This document shows positions 51,781 to 62,264 of a DNA stretch of 64,000 nt, piece after piece. The notes under the pieces are model-generated. The model searched no databases, was not told the origin of the DNA, and was given only the letters and a program-made list of their open reading frames with translations. The position numbers and the translations under genes were made by a program. The stretch comes from Arthrobacter pascens (GTDB lineage Bacteria > Actinomycetota > Actinomycetes > Actinomycetales > Micrococcaceae): the NCBI RefSeq assembly GCF_030816475.1, contig NZ_JAUSXF010000001.1, forward strand, positions 3,534,001 through 3,598,000, given 5' to 3'. The stretch's first letter is position 1; each line of letters opens with the position of its first letter.

Positions 51781-51813
51781 AGCTGAAAGTAAGCTGAAGG
51801 TTTACTGAACTAA
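51781..51813. repeat. Three 11-bp direct repeats upstream of rRNA promoters
   Basis: AGCTGAAAGTA, AGCTGAAGGTT and TACTGAACTAA follow one another with an 11-bp period, one DNA turn. The shared core is CTGAA. The spacing is that of OmpR/PhoB-family response regulator sites. The block lies about 38 bp upstream of the P1 -35 hexamer. Confidence 0.5.
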
Positions 51814-51863
51814 GACCGCACGATTCCTGAGTGACTCCAAGGCGCAGGCAGGAGCGCGAAAAA

Positions 51864-51888
51864 GCCCGGAATCGCAAGGATTCCGGGC
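51864..51888 (-). terminator. Terminator after the mak-glgB gene
   Basis: GCCCGGAATC (51864-51873) pairs perfectly with GATTCCGGGC (51879-51888); on the minus strand it is followed by a T-run (TTTTTC). It lies 43 bp past the stop. Confidence 0.88.
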
Positions 51889-51931
51889 TTCTTCATCACC
51901 GACTCACAGCGTCTTGGTCAATCCGCAGTAC

Positions 51932-54900
51932 TCAATCGGCAGCCGGGGCGCCGGGCTTGAAGTACGCCGCACCCAGCGGCGGCAGCGTGACAGTGAGTGT
52001 GGCGGGCTGGCCATGAAGTCCTTCAGGGCTTGCCTTCAGCTCCCCTGAGTTCAGGACACCCGAACCTCCGTAGGCGGCGGCGTCGGTGTTGAGCACCTCG
52101 GTCCACGCACCCACTGAGGGGACGCCCAGCTCATAACCGACGTGCGGTCCTCCGGAGAAATTGACGGCGCATACAAGAGGGTTGCCTTTGGTGTCCCAAC
52201 GGACAAATGTCACGACGTTCCGGTCTGCGTCCCCGCCGTTGATCCACTGGAATCCGCCGGGTTCGTTATCGCGTGAGTAGAGGGCCGGCGTCGAGCTGTA
52301 CAGCTCGTTCAGGTCCTTGGTGAGCAGCTGCATTCCTCGGTGCGCGGGAATGTCGGCAAGCCACCAATCGAGGCCGTGCTGTTCGGACCACTCCGCTTCC
52401 TGCCCGAACTCGGTGCCCATGAAAATCAGCTGCTTGCCGGGGTGCGCCCACTGGTACGCCAGGAAAGCCCGAAGGTTGGCGAGCTGCTGCCAGCGGTCGC
52501 CAGGCATCTTGCGGAGCATGGAGCCCTTGCCGTGCACTACCTCGTCATGACTGATGGGCAACAGGAAGTTCTCGGTGAAGGCGTAGACCAAGGAGAACGT
52601 CAGGGTGCCGTGGTGCCACTTGCGGTTGACGGGATCTTCGGAGGCGTACTTGAGGGAGTCGTGCATCCAGCCCATGTTCCATTTGAGGCCGAAGCCCAGG
52701 CCGCCATGGCTGGTTGGCGCCGTCACTCCCGGGAAGGCTGTGGATTCCTCAGCGATCATCACCGCGCCAGGGTGGGTCTTGTATACCGTGGCGTTGACTT
52801 CCTGGAGGAAGGAGATTGCTTCCAGGTTTTCGCGTCCGCCAAAACGGTTGGGCGACCACTGCCCGTCTTCGCGGGAGTAGTCCAGGTACAGCATTGAGGC
52901 GACAGCGTCCACCCGGAGCCCGTCGATGTGGAATTCATCGAGCCAGTAGAGCGCGTTGGCCACCAGGAAGTTCCGCACCTCGGTCCGGCCGAAATCGAAG
53001 ATCAGCGTGCCCCAGTCCGGGTGTTCGCCCAGATTGGGATCGGCGTGCTCGTACAGCGGCTGCCCGTCGAACTGCGCAAGGGCCCAGGCGTCTTTGGGGA
53101 AGTGTGCGGGTACCCAGTCAAGGAGCACCCCGATCCCGGCCTGGTGCAAAGTGTCCACCAGGAAGCGGAATTCGTCCGGGTGGCCGAACCGCGAGGTGGG
53201 AGCGAAGTAGGACGTGACCTGGTAGCCCCATGATCCGCCGAACGGATGCTCGGCAACCGGCATGAACTCGACGTGGGTGAAGCCCAGCCATTTGACATAC
53301 TCCACCAGTTCCTTGGCGAGCTCGCGGTAACCGAGTCCTAGCCGCCACGAACCAAGGTGGACTTCGTAGACACTCATTGGCGAATTGTGCGGGTCCCGCT
53401 GGGCGCGGGCTTCCATCCACTCGGAATCCTTGAAGGAATAGGACGGCTCCACCACCCTGGAGGCCGTCAGCGGCGGGACCTCGGTGCCGAAGGCCAGGGG
53501 ATCGGCCTTCTCCACCCAGTGGCCGGCCTTGGTTTTGATCTCGAATTTGTAGCACGCCCCTGCTAAAACGCCGGGCAGGAAGACTTCCCACACTCCTGAA
53601 GAGCCCAGGGAACGAAGCGAATGCTCGCGGCCGTCCCAGGCGTTGAAGTCGCCTTTGACGCGTACTGCCTCGGCATTGGGCGCCCAGACAGCGAAGGAGA
53701 CGCCATCGACATCGCCGAGCGGGGACTTGTAGTGCTGCACGTGGGCTCCCAGCACTTCCCACAGCTTCTCGTGCCGGCCCTCGCTGATGAGGTGCAGGTC
53801 CACTTCACCCACCGTGGGCAGGTAGCGGTAGGGCTCATCCACGGTCAGCGGCTCGCCGCCAGGGTAGGTGACCTCCAGCCGGTAATCGGGAACGTGGCCC
53901 GGCTGCAGGGGATCCAGCACCACGGCCCAAACGCCGTTGGCCTCATGAGTCATGGGCACGGTATCCGCCGCCGTCACTACCGACACGGATGACGCAAGGT
54001 GCTTGACCGTCCGGATGGTGACGTGGCCGTGGTCGTCCAGGTGTGCGCCGAGGACGGAGTGCGGTGCGTGGTGCTCGCCGTTCGCCACCCGTGCAAGGGT
54101 GTCTGCGTCCACGTGAAGCGGCACGTGCGGCCGATCTGTGCGTGCTGAGCCTGTCATTTTGTTACCTTCCGATGCCGCCCCGGCCTGATCGCCGGTGCCT
54201 TTACCGCTGAGGAGCTTCCGGACCGCGTTCACTGGTATGGCCAGCCAATCCGGTCTGTTCCGCAATTCATAAACAACTTCGTAGAGCGCCTTGTCCAGCC
54301 ACAATGCCACAAAGAGCGGCGAACGGCGGTCGATGGTGCCCGCTGTGACGCCCGAGTAGCCGGCGAGGAACGCGTCGGCGCAGTCCTCCACCCAGGATTC
54401 CGGCACACGTGCTCCCTGATATTCGCGTTCCGCCGCACCCCCGGCGTAGTCGAAGGAACGCAACATGCCCACTACATCGCGGAGCGGAACGTCGGGAAAG
54501 TTGCGTTCGGCGATGGGGCGGAGGGGCTCGCCTTCAAAATCCAGGATGGCCCACCGTTCCGGCTCCCCGCCGTGGCCCGGAACCTGCAGGATCTGCCCCA
54601 GGTGGAGGTCGCCATGGATCCGCTGCAGGGGTCCCGCGGCCACGCCGTCGAGTCCGGCGAGCAACGCGTTAACGGTCTGGTCGTAGGGCCCGACGGCGGC
54701 GCCCGCCTCCGCCCAGGCCTGCCGGACCCGCTGGGCTACTCCCGGAACAATGTCCTGGCCCGCGACCCTCTCTTCGGATTGGCCAAGGGCGTCGGCCAGC
54801 CGGCGGTGGACGGTGGCTGTTGCGGCTCCCAGGGCGTGTGCTTCGGCGCTGAAGTCGGTTCCGGTCCTGGCCGCGTCCACGGCCAGACGCCAGGCGTCCC

Positions 54901-55615
54901 GGCCACCGGCGAGGAACTCATGCGCGACGGCCAACTCGCCCTCGGCCAGGCCGGAACCGCCCGGCAGCTCCCATTCGCCCGTGACCCATCCGAGCGTAGC
55001 CGGGACCTCGGACGTGTGGGCCGCTGTCAGGGCAGCGCCCACCTCTACTTCGGGATTCTTCCCTGCAGAGAGGACCCGGAAGAATTTCACAATGGCTGCG
55101 GACTCGCCGTCGTCGACTATTACTGAGCTGTTGGACTGCTCGCCGGAGAGAACCTTGACCATGCCGTGGGCAGTAGGCAGCCGGTAGTCGGACGGGGCCC
55201 GATGGCCCGTGGCCCTGCCCGTGGCGGAGCCGGACCCGCTGCGGATCAGCTCCAGCCAGGCGGAGACGAAAGCTGGATCGTGGACGGCGTCGTAGATCCA
55301 TTCCGGTCCGGACCCCGTCTCGGTGAACTGACCGACCAGGGCACGTTCCATTCCGGTCAGCGGCGCCGTCCTGTAACTGACCGGAACCTGGACGACGTCG
55401 GTACGCTGTCCGCCGTCGGCGGTAGATGACGTTGCTGCCAGCAGGAAGACCTCAAGGTGGGCATGGCCGGCGGGATCCTCAAGGCCCAGGCTGCCTACCT
55501 GTTGCAGCTCAAAATCGGCGGTCTTCACCGGGAACCAGCGCTGACGCGGCAGCCACCCCCGCAGGAGTCCGCTGAGTGCCGGGCTGAGGACGGGTCTGCT
55601 CATGTCAGTTCTCAT
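51932..55615 (-). CDS. glgB: Maltokinase / 1,4-alpha-glucan branching enzyme fusion
   Basis: 1,227 residues in one open frame. Residues 1 to about 475 are a maltokinase: LRGWLPRQRWFPVK cap, VKVLSGEQSNSSVIV, HGDLHLGQIL (about 335) and ILDFEGEPLRP. From about 487 on it is a complete GH13 branching enzyme: N-terminal beta-sandwich modules (HSVLGAHLDDHG, FAVWAPNAEAVRVKGDFNAW), nucleophile Asp903 in DGLRVDAVAS, Glu956 in MIAEESTAF, HDEVVHGKGS and FMGTEFGQEAEW. The kinase makes maltose-1-phosphate for GlgE and GlgB branches the product. Inside the linker an ATG at 54157 has GGAAGG 6-7 nt upstream and would give a normal 741-residue GlgB. Two bases separate this gene from treS. Confidence 0.92.
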   Translation of the reverse strand: MRTDMSRPVLSPALSGLLRGWLPRQRWFPVKTADFELQQVGSLGLEDPAGHAHLEVFLLAATSSTADGGQRTDVVQVPVSYRTAPLTGMERALVGQFTETGSGPEWIYDAVHDPAFVSAWLELIRSGSGSATGRATGHRAPSDYRLPTAHGMVKVLSGEQSNSSVIVDDGESAAIVKFFRVLSAGKNPEVEVGAALTAAHTSEVPATLGWVTGEWELPGGSGLAEGELAVAHEFLAGGRDAWRLAVDAARTGTDFSAEAHALGAATATVHRRLADALGQSEERVAGQDIVPGVAQRVRQAWAEAGAAVGPYDQTVNALLAGLDGVAAGPLQRIHGDLHLGQILQVPGHGGEPERWAILDFEGEPLRPIAERNFPDVPLRDVVGMLRSFDYAGGAAEREYQGARVPESWVEDCADAFLAGYSGVTAGTIDRRSPLFVALWLDKALYEVVYELRNRPDWLAIPVNAVRKLLSGKGTGDQAGAASEGNKMTGSARTDRPHVPLHVDADTLARVANGEHHAPHSVLGAHLDDHGHVTIRTVKHLASSVSVVTAADTVPMTHEANGVWAVVLDPLQPGHVPDYRLEVTYPGGEPLTVDEPYRYLPTVGEVDLHLISEGRHEKLWEVLGAHVQHYKSPLGDVDGVSFAVWAPNAEAVRVKGDFNAWDGREHSLRSLGSSGVWEVFLPGVLAGACYKFEIKTKAGHWVEKADPLAFGTEVPPLTASRVVEPSYSFKDSEWMEARAQRDPHNSPMSVYEVHLGSWRLGLGYRELAKELVEYVKWLGFTHVEFMPVAEHPFGGSWGYQVTSYFAPTSRFGHPDEFRFLVDTLHQAGIGVLLDWVPAHFPKDAWALAQFDGQPLYEHADPNLGEHPDWGTLIFDFGRTEVRNFLVANALYWLDEFHIDGLRVDAVASMLYLDYSREDGQWSPNRFGGRENLEAISFLQEVNATVYKTHPGAVMIAEESTAFPGVTAPTSHGGLGFGLKWNMGWMHDSLKYASEDPVNRKWHHGTLTFSLVYAFTENFLLPISHDEVVHGKGSMLRKMPGDRWQQLANLRAFLAYQWAHPGKQLIFMGTEFGQEAEWSEQHGLDWWLADIPAHRGMQLLTKDLNELYSSTPALYSRDNEPGGFQWINGGDADRNVVTFVRWDTKGNPLVCAVNFSGGPHVGYELGVPSVGAWTEVLNTDAAAYGGSGVLNSGELKASPEGLHGQPATLTVTLPPLGAAYFKPGAPAAD

Positions 55616-55617
55616 AA

Positions 55618-57414
55618 TCAGTTCTCAATGGAGAGGATGGGCATCGCCTGGGTAAAAGGGGAGGTCGGGTTGGAGGCCGCGGAGCGGATCCTGAGCCAGA
55701 AGAAATCGTGGCTTCCCAAGGTCAGCGTCAGTGTGCCGTCGTCGTCGATGCCCGGAAAAGGCTGCCCGCCAAAAACGTCACGCAGCCCGCGGCCCGCAAA
55801 TTGCGGGAGCTTCAACCGGGCAGCCACAGGGTGCTGTGAGAGGTTGAACGCGCACAGGATGGATTCACCGTCCGCCCCCGCTGTGTTGTCGTCGGACAGC
55901 TCCCGCAGGTACGCGAGGACGGCGTCATGATCCGCCTCCACGTGCTTGAAGTTTCCGAGGCCGAACGCCGGATGGTTCTTGCGGACGCTCAGGATCTGCC
56001 GGGTCCAGCGGAGCAGGGAACCCGAATGGGCGGCCTCCGCTTCGACGTTGGCCATGCTGTAGTTGTACACAAGCGACTGGATGACCGGAAGGTACAGCTT
56101 GCCGGGATCCGCGTCCGAGAAGCCTGCGTTACGGTCCGGGTTCCACTGCATGGGTGTGCGTACGGCGTCCCGGTCTTCAAGCCAGATGTTGTCACCCATG
56201 CCGATCTCGTCCCCGTAATACAGGAAGGGACTCCCCGGGAGCGACAGCAGCAGGGCGTGAATCAGTTCGATCTCAGCCCTGGAGTTGTCCAGTAGCGGTG
56301 CCAGCCGTCGACGGATACCGATGTTGGCCCTCATCCGGGGGTCCGGCGCGTACCAGCCGAGCATTGCGGCACGTTCATCCGCCGTGACCATTTCAAGCGT
56401 GAGCTCATCATGGTTCCGCAGGAACGTCCCCCACTGCGCCCCCTCGGGAATCTCGGGGGTGTCATGCATGGTTTCGATAATGGGAGCGGCCTTCTGGTCG
56501 CGCAGTGCGTAATAGAGGCGCGGCATGATGGGGAAGTGGAAGGCCATGTGGCATTCGGGCTCTTCTTCCGTCCCGAAGTACTCCACTACCTCGTTGGGAG
56601 GCTGGTTTGCCTCGGCAATGATGACACGCCCGGGGTAGCTCTCGTCCACCATTCTCCGCAGCTTGCGCAGGAAGTCATGGGTGGCGGGGAGATTTTCGCA
56701 GTTGGTGCCCTCCTCCTCGAAAAGGTACGGGATAGCGTCCGCCCGGAAGCCGTCGATGCCCTGGTCCAGCCAGAACCTGACAACGTCAAAGAGTGCATCG
56801 ATGACCTTCGGATTCTCGAAGTTCAGGTCCGGCTGGTGGCTGAAGAACCGGTGCCAGAAGAACTGCCGGCGGATCGGATCGAAGGTCCAGTTGGATTCCT
56901 CGGTGTCCACGAAAATGATGCGGGCATCCTGGTACTTCTCGTCCGTGTCGCTCCACACATAGAAGTCGCCGAAGGGACCGTCAGGGTCCTTGCGTGACTC
57001 CTGGAACCATGGGTGCTGGTCCGAGGTGTGGTTCAGCGGAAGGTCGATGATGACCCGGACGCCGCGCGCGTGGGCTTCGGCAACGAGACGCTTGAAATCC
57101 GTGATGGTGCCAAACTCATCGAGTACCGAGTTGTAGTCGGAGATGTCATATCCGCCGTCGCGCAGGGGTGACTGGAAAAACGGCGGCAGCCACAGGCAGT
57201 CAACGCCGAGCCACTGCAGGTAATCGAGCCTGTCGATGAGTCCGTGGAAGTCCCCGGAACCATCGCCGTTGGCGTCCGCAAAGGCCCTTACGAGCACCTC
57301 GTAGAACACTGCCTTCCGATACCAGAACGGATCATGTTGAAGACCCGGTGCGTTCAGCTCGAACGTGCTCTTGGGGGTGAAATGCTGGCCGGAGCCCTGC
57401 GGGTTAAAACTCAC
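55618..57414 (-). CDS. treS: Trehalose synthase / maltose glucosyltransferase
   Basis: 598 residues from the GTG at 57414, which overlaps the glgE stop (GTGA) and has GAGGAG upstream; a longer frame to 57492 is rejected. GH13 signatures: [40 protein letters not shown], nucleophile in [14 protein letters not shown], acid in [26 protein letters not shown], and [20 protein letters not shown], which is diagnostic of TreS. It interconverts trehalose and maltose in the cytoplasm, supplying maltose to the maltokinase domain encoded next. Confidence 0.96.
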
Positions 57415-59492
57415 GGATGCGATCTCCTCACGCTCAGGATGTGTGCGGGTTCGATGTGCGCGTCCAAGCGGACGTAGTTGTATTCGCCCCATTCCCAGCT
57501 TTCGCCGGAAATCAGGTCATCCACGCGGAAGCCTCCATTGTGCAACAGGTCTTCCGGGTCAAGTTCCAGTGCGGCCAGGTCGAGCGACACGCTGCTCTCC
57601 CTTGTCCCGTGCGGATCGACGTTGACCACCACGATGATGGTGTCCTTGGTGCCGTCCGCGAGGGTCTTGTGCTTGGAGAAGACCACGGTGGCTTCGTCCG
57701 TGCTCTCGTGGACTGTCAGGTTCTGTAGGTCCTGAAGGGCAGGGTGGCTGTGCCGGATCTCGTTGAGCCGGGTCAGGTACGGGGCCAGCGTCCGGCCGGA
57801 TGCTGCCGCGGCCTCCCAGTCGCGGGCCTTGTACTCGAACTTTTCGTTGTCGATGTACTCCTCCGCGCCCGGCCGGGCGACGTGCTCGTACAGTTCGTAG
57901 CCTGCATAGACACCCCACAGCGGGCTGGCTGTTGCCGCCAGGACCGCTCGGATCTTGAACGCGGGCGGGCCGCCGTACTGCAGGTATTCGGTGAGGATGT
58001 CGGGGGTGTTGACGAAGAAGTTGGGCCGGAAGTAGGCCGGCGAGTCGTGGCTGACCTCTGTGAAGTAGGCCTCCAGCTCCTTCTTGGTGTTCCGCCAGGT
58101 GAAGTAGGTGTAAGACTGCTGGAAACCGGCCCGGCCCAAAGCGTGCATCATGGCCGGACGGGTGAAGGCCTCGGCCAGGAACACCACACCGGGTGCCTTG
58201 GTGTTGACCTGGCCGATGAGCCATTCCCAGAACCATACGGGCTTGGTGTGGGGATTATCCACACGGAAAATCTTCACCCCATGGCTGACCCACAGAAGAA
58301 CAATCCTGAGGATTTCCTCGGAGAGGCCCTCCGGATCATTATCGAAATTCAGCGGATAAATATCCTGGTATTTCTTCGGCGGGTTTTCCGCGTAGGCAAT
58401 GCTGCCGTCCACGCGGGTGGTAAACCATTCCGGGTGGGATTCCACCCACGGGTGGTCCGGCGCGGCCTGAAGCGCCAGGTCCAGTGCCACCTCGAGTCCC
58501 AGCTCTTTGGCCCGGGCGACAAAGGCATCGAAATCCTCGAACGTGCCTAGATCCGGGTGGATGGCATCGTGGCCGCCCTCCTTGGCCCCGATTGCCCAGG
58601 GCGAACCGGGATCGTTGGGGCCGGCGATCAGTGTGTTGTTCGGCCCCTTGCGGTGCTGTACGCCGATGGGGTGGATGGGTGGCATGTAGATCACGTCGAA
58701 GCCCATGGCCGCCACAGCGTCGAGGCGTTTGGCTGCCGTGCGGAAGTTTCCTGAAGTCCAGGCGCCCGTGGTGTGGTCCTTGACTGCGCCTTCGGAGCGG
58801 GGGAAGAACTCATACCAGGCTCCGCGGCCGGCCAGGTCCCGCTCAACCAGCAAGGGGTACTGCTCGGAGACGGTGACCAGATCGCGGATCGGCTGGTGAG
58901 CGACAACGCCGGTGACCGCGTGGCTGAATCCGGCCCCGAGGCGCTCCTCCGTGCTGAGGGAAGGGTCAGCCAGCTTGTCTGCGGCCTCTCGGAGGACGCC
59001 CCTGTCCCACTCGCTGCGGGAGTCGTCCCCGGCAGCTTCATGGAGCAAGGCGGCACCCTCGGCGAGCATCAGCTCGACGTCGATCCCGGCGGCCACCTTG
59101 ACCTCGGCATTATGATGCCACGTTCCGTACCTGTCATGCCACGCCTCGATGAGGAAGGACCAGTTGCCGGTGCCCGACGGCGTGAGGGTACCTTCCCAGC
59201 GGTCCGTCCCCATCCCGCGTTCTCCCCTCGGCGGGGCCAGCCTGACGCGTTGGCGCTCCTGGCCGGCGGGATCCAGGAGGACGGCAGTTACGCCCAGCCG
59301 GTCGTGTCCTTCGCGGAATACGGTGGCGCCCACCACTATTCCCTCACCAGGCAAGGCCTTGGCCGGAAACTTTCCACCTTCCACCACCGGCTGCACGGCG
59401 GCGATAGGAAAACGGCCAAACCTCAGACCGTCAAAGATCCGGCCTTTTGGCTTTTGCATGGATGCGGCACTGGTTCCTAAGTTAGTCGTCAC
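57411..59492 (-). CDS. glgE: Alpha-1,4-glucan:maltose-1-phosphate maltosyltransferase
   Basis: 693 residues, normal for GlgE (GH13_3). An N-terminal sandwich domain ([20 protein letters not shown]) and helical insert precede the barrel: [40 protein letters not shown], the nucleophile in [20 protein letters not shown] and the acid in [15 protein letters not shown]. It extends alpha-1,4-glucan from maltose-1-phosphate. The start is GTG, with a weak CGAG site. It heads the glgE-treS-(mak-glgB) operon and is divergent from glgP, 153 bp away; that gap is AT-richer than its surroundings and should hold both promoters. Confidence 0.96.
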
Positions 59493-59645
59493 ATGCTCGA
59501 CGTTAGCGAGAAATCAACGAGATTGCTAAGCCTGCTCAGTTTTTTCGGGCCGCGTTTCGACTTTCCTGCAAGCGTTATCTGTCATTTACCTAAAAGAAAG
59601 CCAAACCGGTTCCTGCCGCCCATGTTGTCGGTTAGTGTGGCGCAG

Positions 59646-62264
59646 GTGAAGGCAATCCGCAGATTTACCGTACGAACTGTTCTCCCCGAGCCGATCAGGC
59701 CACTGGCCCGATTAGCGACGAATCTCCGCTGGTCCTGGCACCGGCCGACACGCGAGCTGTTCGCGGGATTGAACTCACGCATCTGGGAGGAAAGCGGACA
59801 GGATCCGGTCACCTTCCTGGGGCTGGTCAGCCGCGAAGAGTTCCAGAGCCTCGCCGCCGACCAGTCGGTGGTGGAACGGATCAGGGCTGCCGAGAACGAC
59901 CTTGACCGGTACCTCGAGGAACCCCGCTGGTACCAGGGCCTGGGCGGCGACGCCCCGACTTCCATCGCCTATTTTTCGCCCGAATTCGGCATCACCGAGG
60001 TGCTCCCGCAGTACTCCGGCGGCCTGGGCATCCTGGCCGGTGACCACCTCAAAGCTGCCTCCGACCTGGGCGTGCCGCTGATCGGCGTCGGCCTGCTGTA
60101 CCAGGCCGGCTACTTCAAGCAGTCGCTCTCCCGCGACGCCTGGCAGCAGGAGACCTATCCTGTGCTGGACCCGGACGGACTCCCGCTGACGCTGCTCCGC
60201 GAGCCGTCACGGGACGGCAACGGCCGTCCCCTCCAGGTTTCGCTGCCGCTTCCCAACGGCCGCCGGCTGCTGGCACACATCTGGCGTGCAGACGTCGGGC
60301 GCGTCCCCCTGCTGCTGCTCGACTCGAATGTTCCGGGCAACGACGACGCCGCACGCGGCATCACTGACCGCCTCTACGGCGGCGGAGGAGACCACCGGCT
60401 CCAGCAGGAGCTCCTCCTGGGAATGGGCGGGGTGAAGGCGCTGCGCCTCTACCAGCGGCTCACCGGAACCGACGCGCCGGAGGTGTTCCACACCAACGAA
60501 GGCCACGCCGGCTTCCTCGGCATTGAACGGATCCAGGAGCTCATGGCCGGCGAGGAAGCCCTCAGCTTCGAGGAGGCACTTGCTGCCGGCAGGGCCTCCA
60601 CAGTGTTCACCACGCACACTCCGGTGCCGGCCGGCATCGACCGCTTTGAAGTTTCCCAGATCCAGCACTTCTTCCAGGCGGGGCTGGCGCCTGCCGTGCC
60701 GGTCGAGAGAATCCTCGAACTCGGCCAGGAAAACTACGCCGATGGAAACCCGTCGGTCTTCAACATGGCAGTGATGGGCCTCCGGCTGGCGCAGCGCGCC
60801 AACGGTGTGGCCAAGCTCCATGGCGAGGTGTCCCGCGGCATGTTCTCCGCGCTGTGGCCGGGCTTCGACCACTCCGAGGTGCCCATCACGTCGGTGACGA
60901 ACGGTGTGCATGTGCCCACCTGGGTGGATGGGCGAATTTCCAAGCTCGCCAGGGACCAGTTTGGTGCCGAAGCCGAAGCCATGGGGCGCTGGGATCTCGC
61001 CTACAACGTCAGCGACGCCGATGTCTGGGCGCTCCGGCGCGAAATGCGCGCCGCGCTGGTTGACGATGTGCGCCGCCGCCTCCGCGCCGCCTGGAAGAAG
61101 CGCGGCGCCGCGGACGCCGAACTCGGGTGGACGGACAACGTCCTCGATCCCGATGTCCTCACGATCGGGTTCGCCCGCCGTGTCCCCACCTACAAGCGCC
61201 TCACCCTGATGCTGCGGGAGCCCGAGCGGCTGAAGGCACTCCTCCTGCACAAGGAACACCCCATCCAGCTGGTGATCGCCGGCAAGTCGCATCCGGCCGA
61301 CGACGCCGGCAAGAAGATGATCCAGGACCTGGTGCGTTTCACGGACGATCCCGAAGTCCGGCACCGGATCGCGTTCCTGCCGAATTACGACATTGCGATG
61401 GCCAGGACGCTCTTCCCCGGTTGCGATGTCTGGCTGAACAACCCCCTCCGTCCGCTGGAAGCATGCGGCACGTCGGGGATGAAGGCAGCCATCAACGGTT
61501 CCCTGAACCTTTCCGTCCTGGACGGCTGGTGGGATGAGATGTACGACGGCGAAAACGGCTGGGCGATTCCCACCGCCAACAACGGCGCGTCCCCGGAGGA
61601 TCGCGACGACATTGAAGCGGCGGCACTCTATGAGCTGCTGGAAACCCAGGTGGCGCCGCGTTTCTATGGCAGTACAGTCTCCGAGGACGCCGGGGCGGCC
61701 GGCCCGTCCCTCTCCGGGATGGAGAAGGTCCCCACGCACTGGGTGTCCATGATCAAGCACACCCTGTCGCACCTCGGCCCGGCCGTTTCCGCGGAGCGGA
61801 TGCTGCACGACTACGTCAATACCCTCTACCGTCCTGCCGCGGAGGCAGGACGCAGGGCCGTGGCGGACTCCTATGCCCAGGCCCGCACCCTCGCGGCCTG
61901 GATCGCGCACGTGCGTTCCGCCTGGCCACTGCTCCATGTGGAACATGTGGATTCCGTTGGGGTATCCGAGGATCCGCAGATTGGCGACACCCTTCAGGTG
62001 AACGCGTACGTGGCTCTGCACACCCTTTCCCCGGATGACGTTGCCGTCGAAGTTGCTTACGGCCGCGCCGAGGAAAGCGATACCTTGGCGGATATCACCA
62101 TCATGGAGCTGAAAGCGCAGGAAGACCTGGGCAGCGGGCGCCACCTGTTCACCGGTTCCCTGGTGATCGACCGCTCCGGCTCCTTCGGCTACACCGTGCG
62201 CGTCCTGCCCCGGCACGAGGCGCTGGCGTCCAAGGCCGAACTTGGACTGATCGTCAACGCCTAG
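59646..62264 (+). CDS. glgP: Alpha-glucan phosphorylase
   Basis: 872 residues from the GTG at 59646 giving (M)KAIRRFTVRTVLPEPIRPLA, the usual start of this actinobacterial type; the frame opens earlier (59493) but overlaps the promoter gap. SPEFGITEVLPQYSGGLGIL and AGDHLKAASDLG mark the N-terminal domain; the PLP lysine lies in EACGTSGMKAAINGSLNLSV. It cleaves alpha-1,4-glucan with phosphate to glucose-1-phosphate. It is the shorter DUF3417-containing form rather than the E. coli MalP type. Convergent with glgX, with a shared terminator. Confidence 0.93.
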   Translation: MKAIRRFTVRTVLPEPIRPLARLATNLRWSWHRPTRELFAGLNSRIWEESGQDPVTFLGLVSREEFQSLAADQSVVERIRAAENDLDRYLEEPRWYQGLGGDAPTSIAYFSPEFGITEVLPQYSGGLGILAGDHLKAASDLGVPLIGVGLLYQAGYFKQSLSRDAWQQETYPVLDPDGLPLTLLREPSRDGNGRPLQVSLPLPNGRRLLAHIWRADVGRVPLLLLDSNVPGNDDAARGITDRLYGGGGDHRLQQELLLGMGGVKALRLYQRLTGTDAPEVFHTNEGHAGFLGIERIQELMAGEEALSFEEALAAGRASTVFTTHTPVPAGIDRFEVSQIQHFFQAGLAPAVPVERILELGQENYADGNPSVFNMAVMGLRLAQRANGVAKLHGEVSRGMFSALWPGFDHSEVPITSVTNGVHVPTWVDGRISKLARDQFGAEAEAMGRWDLAYNVSDADVWALRREMRAALVDDVRRRLRAAWKKRGAADAELGWTDNVLDPDVLTIGFARRVPTYKRLTLMLREPERLKALLLHKEHPIQLVIAGKSHPADDAGKKMIQDLVRFTDDPEVRHRIAFLPNYDIAMARTLFPGCDVWLNNPLRPLEACGTSGMKAAINGSLNLSVLDGWWDEMYDGENGWAIPTANNGASPEDRDDIEAAALYELLETQVAPRFYGSTVSEDAGAAGPSLSGMEKVPTHWVSMIKHTLSHLGPAVSAERMLHDYVNTLYRPAAEAGRRAVADSYAQARTLAAWIAHVRSAWPLLHVEHVDSVGVSEDPQIGDTLQVNAYVALHTLSPDDVAVEVAYGRAEESDTLADITIMELKAQEDLGSGRHLFTGSLVIDRSGSFGYTVRVLPRHEALASKAELGLIVNA

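Follow-up and report, generated by a model that had tools for sequence, protein, structure and literature searches.

Does a gene that joins two enzymes in a single reading frame, and carries a second ribosome site and start codon where they meet, make one protein or two? The question is raised by the mak-glgB gene on the minus strand of the DNA analysed here (the window: 64,000 nucleotides (nt) of Arthrobacter pascens, contig NZ_JAUSXF010000001.1, positions 3,534,001 to 3,598,000), in which a maltokinase (Mak) is followed in frame by a branching enzyme (GlgB). We put at roughly 80% the probability that the fusion arose by loss of a stop in a tight gene pair with the glgB start kept, and that Mak-GlgB and free GlgB are both made, as comparison of sequences suggests; both proteins would then be expected to accumulate. 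The first-pass annotation had proposed two products from one message, and comparative evidence speaks for it, namely conservation of the internal site, a predicted open start region and unfused relatives.

The in-frame fusion described in that annotation is borne out by one open minus-strand frame, by Pfam domains and by solved structures (Table 1). Pfam places Mak_N_cap (PF18085, E 5.5e-23) at residues 21-113 of the fusion, GlgB_N at 504-596 and CBM_48 at 622-708, followed by alpha-amylase domains; the maltokinase structures 4u94 and 4o7o align over residues 21-470 and 20-469, and the branching enzyme structure 3k1d over 506-1221. With its N-cap, kinase fold and motifs, the first part has the predicted make-up of a maltokinase (Mak/Pep2), and we take HGDLHLGQ and DFEG to be its kinase-type catalytic motifs. 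The second part combines the GlgB_N, CBM48, GH13 and C-terminal domains of a GH13 branching enzyme with DWVPAHF, GLRVDAV, AEEST and SHDE, presumably its catalytic motifs. A search of the same genome for GlgB gave a single full-length copy, the other four matches being partial. Read 5' to 3' on the minus strand, the join runs GGAAGGT (54170-54164), AACAAA, ATG (54157-54155), with 7 nt between GGAAGG and ATG; the site and start that had been noted there are present and conserved across the genus, and translation from the internal start yields the 741 residues that had been given for a separate GlgB.

Table 1. Features of the mak-glgB locus, in positions of the window
Feature	Positions	Strand	Remarks
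mak-glgB fusion gene	51932..55603	-	start taken as ATG 55603; 1223 amino acids (aa), 132.9 kDa
longest open frame of mak-glgB	51932..55615	-	1227 codons, uninterrupted
maltokinase homology	54206..55555	-	residues 21-470; Pfam and solved structures; motifs HGDLHLGQ (334), DFEG (359)
linker	54158..54205	-	residues 471-486; stop-free in 107/107 distinct genus sequences
internal Shine-Dalgarno (SD) sequence GGAAGGT	54164..54170	-	unchanged in 106/107 distinct genus sequences
internal glgB start codon ATG	54155..54157	-	GTG in 1/107
glgB from internal start	51932..54157	-	741 aa, 81.9 kDa; GlgB_N, CBM48, GH13 and C-terminal domains: complete branching enzyme
treS	55618..57492	-	directly upstream of mak; open reading frame as listed, real start probably inside; stop near mak start
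glgE	57411..59492	-	first gene of the glgE-treS-mak-glgB run

How often the two genes are fused, a point raised by the first-pass annotation, was surveyed in 111 loci of the window's genus: 101 from genomes of its genus code (its own included) and 10 from named records of Arthrobacter, Pseudarthrobacter and Paenarthrobacter, which are 74-87% identical, were assigned to the genus by identity and include at least one overlap with the others. Loci were chosen as best matches, as a spread among the matches listed and from an earlier draw. All 111, from separately assembled genomes and comprising 107 distinct sequences, are fused, so that fusion is the usual state in the genus. A match at E<=1e-100 was found in 205 of 206 genomes of the genus, the one genome without it being 63% complete, and in the family 139 of 197 genomes had a match. 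Nor is the fusion new as a sequence family, since the NCBIfam model NF011293 (PRK14705) covers residues 5-1222 with its positions 1-1223 at 2556.7 bits, above its curated cut-off of 2376. The model thus describes the same fused protein from end to end; it is named for branching only, and its entry is silent on the maltokinase part and the internal start. One might suspect an error of sequencing or assembly behind the fused frame, since only small insertions or deletions (indels) separate fused from unfused loci in one genus (g24 in our coding); the separately assembled loci refute this for the window's genus, and we give it practically no weight. A hidden stop at the join was considered for genomes that the search had flagged with an inside stop: in the loci of G187, G056 and G193 (L091, L099 and L104) the frame runs on past the join, and among eight further flagged genomes in the matches listed L147, L154, L160, L182 and L199 are fused, while G284, G303 and G205 lie outside the loci examined for this.

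The strongest evidence for an internal start lies in the nucleotides at the join. In the 107 distinct sequences, to which the genus counts below refer, the codons ahead of the start read nnG GAA GGT. GAA is invariant and GGT is kept in 106; the base preceding GAA is always G, in a codon that encodes Ser (56), Ala (45), Val (4), Leu (1) or Pro (1). As start codon, 106 sequences have ATG and one has GTG; the codons that separate it from the ribosome site are variable (Asn, Ile, Lys, Met and others). GGT makes up 14% of the Gly codons in these mak-glgB sequences. When third-base changes were counted on a tree of the whole gene, the GAA column had 0 against a median of 19 for 43 conserved Glu columns, with no other so low, and the GGT column had 1 against a median of 25 for 94 Gly columns, with one other equally low. 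Of 1034 three-codon windows, the two that change least (0 and 1 changes; median 60) are those over the site. The SD sequence and start codon are therefore conserved beyond the encoded protein, as a functional internal start would be.

One might instead hold that only the fused bifunctional protein matters and that the internal site survives as a mere relic, left from the old glgB start. Such a view would agree with the constancy of the fusion in the genus loci and with the existence of several fused lineages that have no internal site. A relic, however, should decay at third positions, where this site has next to no changes and the neighbouring linker codons are free, and the Met codon, where it does change, once, becomes GTG, itself a start codon. 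Nucleotides fixed where amino acids are free form a pattern that neither a relic nor protein constraint would produce, and we consider this explanation quite improbable.

A second, weaker block of few third-base changes was observed at 54290-54313 of the minus strand (TTT GTG GCA TTG TGG CTG GAC AAG), about 50 codons upstream of the join; it ranks 9 and 13 of the 1034 windows and has no promoter-like match. A promoter within mak was also considered, but none came up between 51700 and 55700 in a sigma-70 style scan, which may miss actinobacterial promoters.

Predicted mRNA structure is reduced at the internal start. In 40 of the 107 sequences, the fold from -25 to +20 averages a weak -5.6 kcal/mol compared with a gene mean of -13.3 kcal/mol, and the region ranks 9 of 1193 columns in predicted openness. 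These predictions bear on the idea that the conserved block serves a role other than initiation, as a pause site for Mak folding or a binding site on DNA or RNA. SD-like sequences within genes have sometimes been proposed to slow ribosomes, and the block could be one of them; yet it stands 7 nt before a codon that swaps ATG only for GTG, its surroundings are predicted to be open, unfused relatives start glgB at this very position, and no Rfam family reaches its gathering score over 51800-59700. We regard this role as very improbable.

Initiation at the join would not by itself require the fused frame to be maintained. Across 45 alignment columns ahead of the internal start, 105 of the 107 sequences have 44 codons and two have 45. 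No linker stop occurs, against about 5.4 expected without selection (P about 0.005), an expectation drawn from 372 parsimony changes in the last 24 columns under a rough model that ignores mutation bias. Linker codons beside the ribosome site change freely. The fused frame looks kept, and because a stop-free linker and a conserved site occur together, both products seem to be under selection. It could still be argued that GlgB comes almost only from the internal start, the fused product being minor read-in and the frame incidental. The extreme third-base constraint at the site would suit this, and the site looks stronger than the mak start region close behind the treS stop, a comparison that is illustrative only, the mak-start energies having been taken at alignment starts of 14 loci whose real starts may differ. 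The frame kept in every genus locus, the near-constant codon number and the absence of the expected stops speak against it; moreover, nothing terminates ribosomes leaving mak, so any translation of mak must yield the fusion. We consider it unlikely, and continue to favour the production of both proteins.

Several points weigh against two products. The ribosome site is of moderate strength (-7.1 kcal/mol in 98 of the 107 sequences), a 121-nt fold at the join of the window itself does not stand out as unstructured (z +1.12), and taken sequence by sequence the start ranks anywhere from the top 0.1% to the top 21% of open windows. Outside the genus the support is mixed. In favour of an internal start, a purine-rich site followed by a start was counted at the join in fused loci of g4 (7/7), g6 (7/11), g7 (10/10), g15 (3/3), g24 (8/8), g26 (6/6), g28 (5/5) and g32 (10/10), with ATG and GTG interchanging in g4, g7 and g32; the patterns were set after inspection of the sequences, with g8, g9, g17, g18, g25, g27, g30 and g31 uncounted. 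A codon-shuffle test on 45 linker codons, confined to fused loci outside the genus, was mixed, with p<=0.05 in 29 of 85 loci and p<=0.01 in 3 of 85. Among fused loci, a convincing site is missing from 8 of 9 in g8, 4 of 11 in g6, both in g27 and about 7 of 9 in g31, which indicates that the internal start is dispensable in some of the lineages concerned. The linkers of g6, g15, g31 and g32 (for example L277, L273 and L276) reach about 100 residues or more and are rich in Ala, Pro, Glu and Lys, unlike the short linker of near-constant length in the window's genus.

Among 118 loci of other genera, 89 are fused, 10 separate and 17 without an adjacent Mak in the stretch examined, with two unscored (L223 and L280); automatic classes were amended by eye for L226, L228, L244 and L109 (fused, scored as lacking Mak) and for L214 (without Mak, scored as separate). 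Outside the family, Pseudokineococcus, Ornithinimicrobium and Leekyejoonella each have a fused locus. In L210, L211 and L308 the frame is interrupted within the linker or shortly after it, through either real unfusing or sequencing error: L210 and L211, scored as separate, lose the frame midway along the linker, L211 has a run of N, and the break in L308 falls in a C-rich stretch. The mak-glgB stretch of L309 (Arthrobacter sp. StoSoilB13) and of L308 (Arthrobacter sp. ERGS1:01) is on large plasmid records.

Unfused relatives start glgB at the same position as the internal start. In g19, the group nearest to the genus among 73 tree rows (support 98 in a quick tree), mak and glgB are separate; its four loci, which read AAAGGGAAACCATGA in three and AAAGGGAACCCATGA in one, have the glgB site and ATG with the mak TGA overlapping the ATG. 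In g24 eight loci are fused and two separate, and the separate ones have a mak TGA one base before the ATG common to the fused loci; two single-base indels at the join distinguish the unfused L215 from the fused L232. In the two loci of g5, the mak stop closely precedes the glgB start or spans it. The 73-row tree requires no fewer than eight switches between the fused and the separate state, in one direction or the other; this count is rough, the scoring having used another motif and some rows being wrongly classed as lacking Mak. In the history that we propose, mak and glgB would once have been tightly packed or overlapping genes in a glgE-treS-mak-glgB run, small indels would have moved mak off its stop-bearing frame into the glgB frame, and the glgB start would have been retained as a working site within the fused frame. 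It is an even bet whether the stop that parts mak from glgB acts as an evolutionary switch, which the family would have lost and recovered more than once around a fixed glgB site and start, with fusion adding a tethered form and the free enzyme retained.

At such a locus, ribosomes entering at mak would make Mak-GlgB of about 133 kDa, and others would bind GGAAGG and start at ATG 54157, giving a complete free GlgB of about 82 kDa. Free GlgB would have to outnumber Mak, and through the fused form the kinase would be held at the growing glucan. The ratio of the two products may set chain building against branching, as the first-pass annotation suggested, and the fusion might channel substrate. 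Elsewhere in the genome, GlgC (448 bits, cut-off 424.9) lies beside a GlgA_Coryne protein (564 bits, cut-off 302.4), a family that we take to be of the GT4 type. The need for excess GlgB follows if GlgC and a GlgM-type enzyme yield maltose-1-phosphate without Mak, every route needing GlgB; Mak would then be required only on the trehalose route and GlgB on both. The GT4 'GlgA' proteins of GlgE-bearing actinomycetes are likely GlgM, which converts ADP-glucose to maltose-1-phosphate (PMC11046441; papers are cited here by PMC number for the excerpts available of them). Since TreS and Pep2 of mycobacteria form a hetero-octamer (PMC11046441), the fusion could, by analogy, recruit TreS as well as Mak to the glucan by way of GlgB. 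In the GlgA-GlgB fusion of Waddliaceae and Criblamydiaceae, the branching domain appears to be non-functional due to its N-terminal partner (PMC7935935). It resembles the present protein in that GlgB carries an N-terminal enzyme domain, and the apparently non-functional branching domain of the Waddlia protein is a precedent for needing free GlgB, which may likewise be required beside Mak-GlgB; the partner differs, and that lineage has a second GlgB, whereas our search of the A. pascens genome gave no second full one.

The GlgE pathway run is complete here, with glgE, treS, mak and glgB together on the same strand. The 1,227 residues given for the fusion in the first-pass annotation hold as the length of the open frame; the real protein is likely to have 1223 aa, since the NF011293 match begins at fusion residue 5 and relatives place the mak ATG by the treS stop. 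In 13 relatives shown beside the window's own locus, this ATG, the equivalent of M5, is on or very near that stop, and mak probably starts at 55603. At the treS/mak border (55605-55626, minus strand) GAGAACTGA is present twice, a duplication absent from the 13 relatives compared; the repeat gives rise to an additional upstream ATG and probably to a wrong N-terminal extension of Mak by four residues.

TreS-Mak fusions and internal in-frame starts are each already known. The first-pass annotation described Mak as separate or fused to TreS in mycobacteria and many actinobacteria, which is roughly right: it stands apart from TreS in mycobacteria and streptomycetes (PMC11046441), but is joined to it in most phyla (PMC4306142) and, according to one genome paper, in numerous actinobacteria (PMC4572677). 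Bifunctional TreS-Mak (TreS-Pep2) proteins have been characterised from Estrella and Pseudomonas (PMC11046441, PMC7935935). In both arrangements Mak is joined to a neighbouring enzyme of the GlgE pathway, but there it is C-terminal to TreS, whereas here it is N-terminal to GlgB and TreS is a protein of its own. Internal in-frame starts are known from cas8b/Cas11b of Haloferax, and isoform reading frames have been mapped in Mycobacterium tuberculosis (PMC11899642, PMC9094748); there too one gene gives two proteins, the shorter from the inner start. Here, by contrast, the inner product would be a whole enzyme whose start position is common to unfused relatives. Searches of open-licence PMC text aimed at the fusion, at internal starts and at GlgM turned up no paper on the Mak-GlgB fusion or its inner start, and neither is mentioned in the available excerpts of PMC11046441, PMC7935935, PMC4306142, PMC2885305, PMC8171050, PMC4572677 and PMC4326396. 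An Arthrobacter branching enzyme of fusion size is listed at 4148869-4145174 in PMC8171050, in an excerpt without the words 'fused' and 'maltokinase'.

The gene is annotated as a single protein, and a biochemist in search of the branching enzyme would clone the 1,223-codon fusion. Should the cell make free GlgB as well, a second product may have escaped studies of glycogen in Arthrobacter and its relatives, and translation would set the kinase to branching enzyme ratio. Third-base conservation at the join provides a test, from sequence alone, of whether a fused bacterial gene still yields separate parts. If the stop between the two genes is indeed such a switch, bacterial gene fusions would have here a general means of preserving stoichiometry, acting as two genes at the level of translation, and synonymous constraint at the join would be the signature of such fused yet separate genes.

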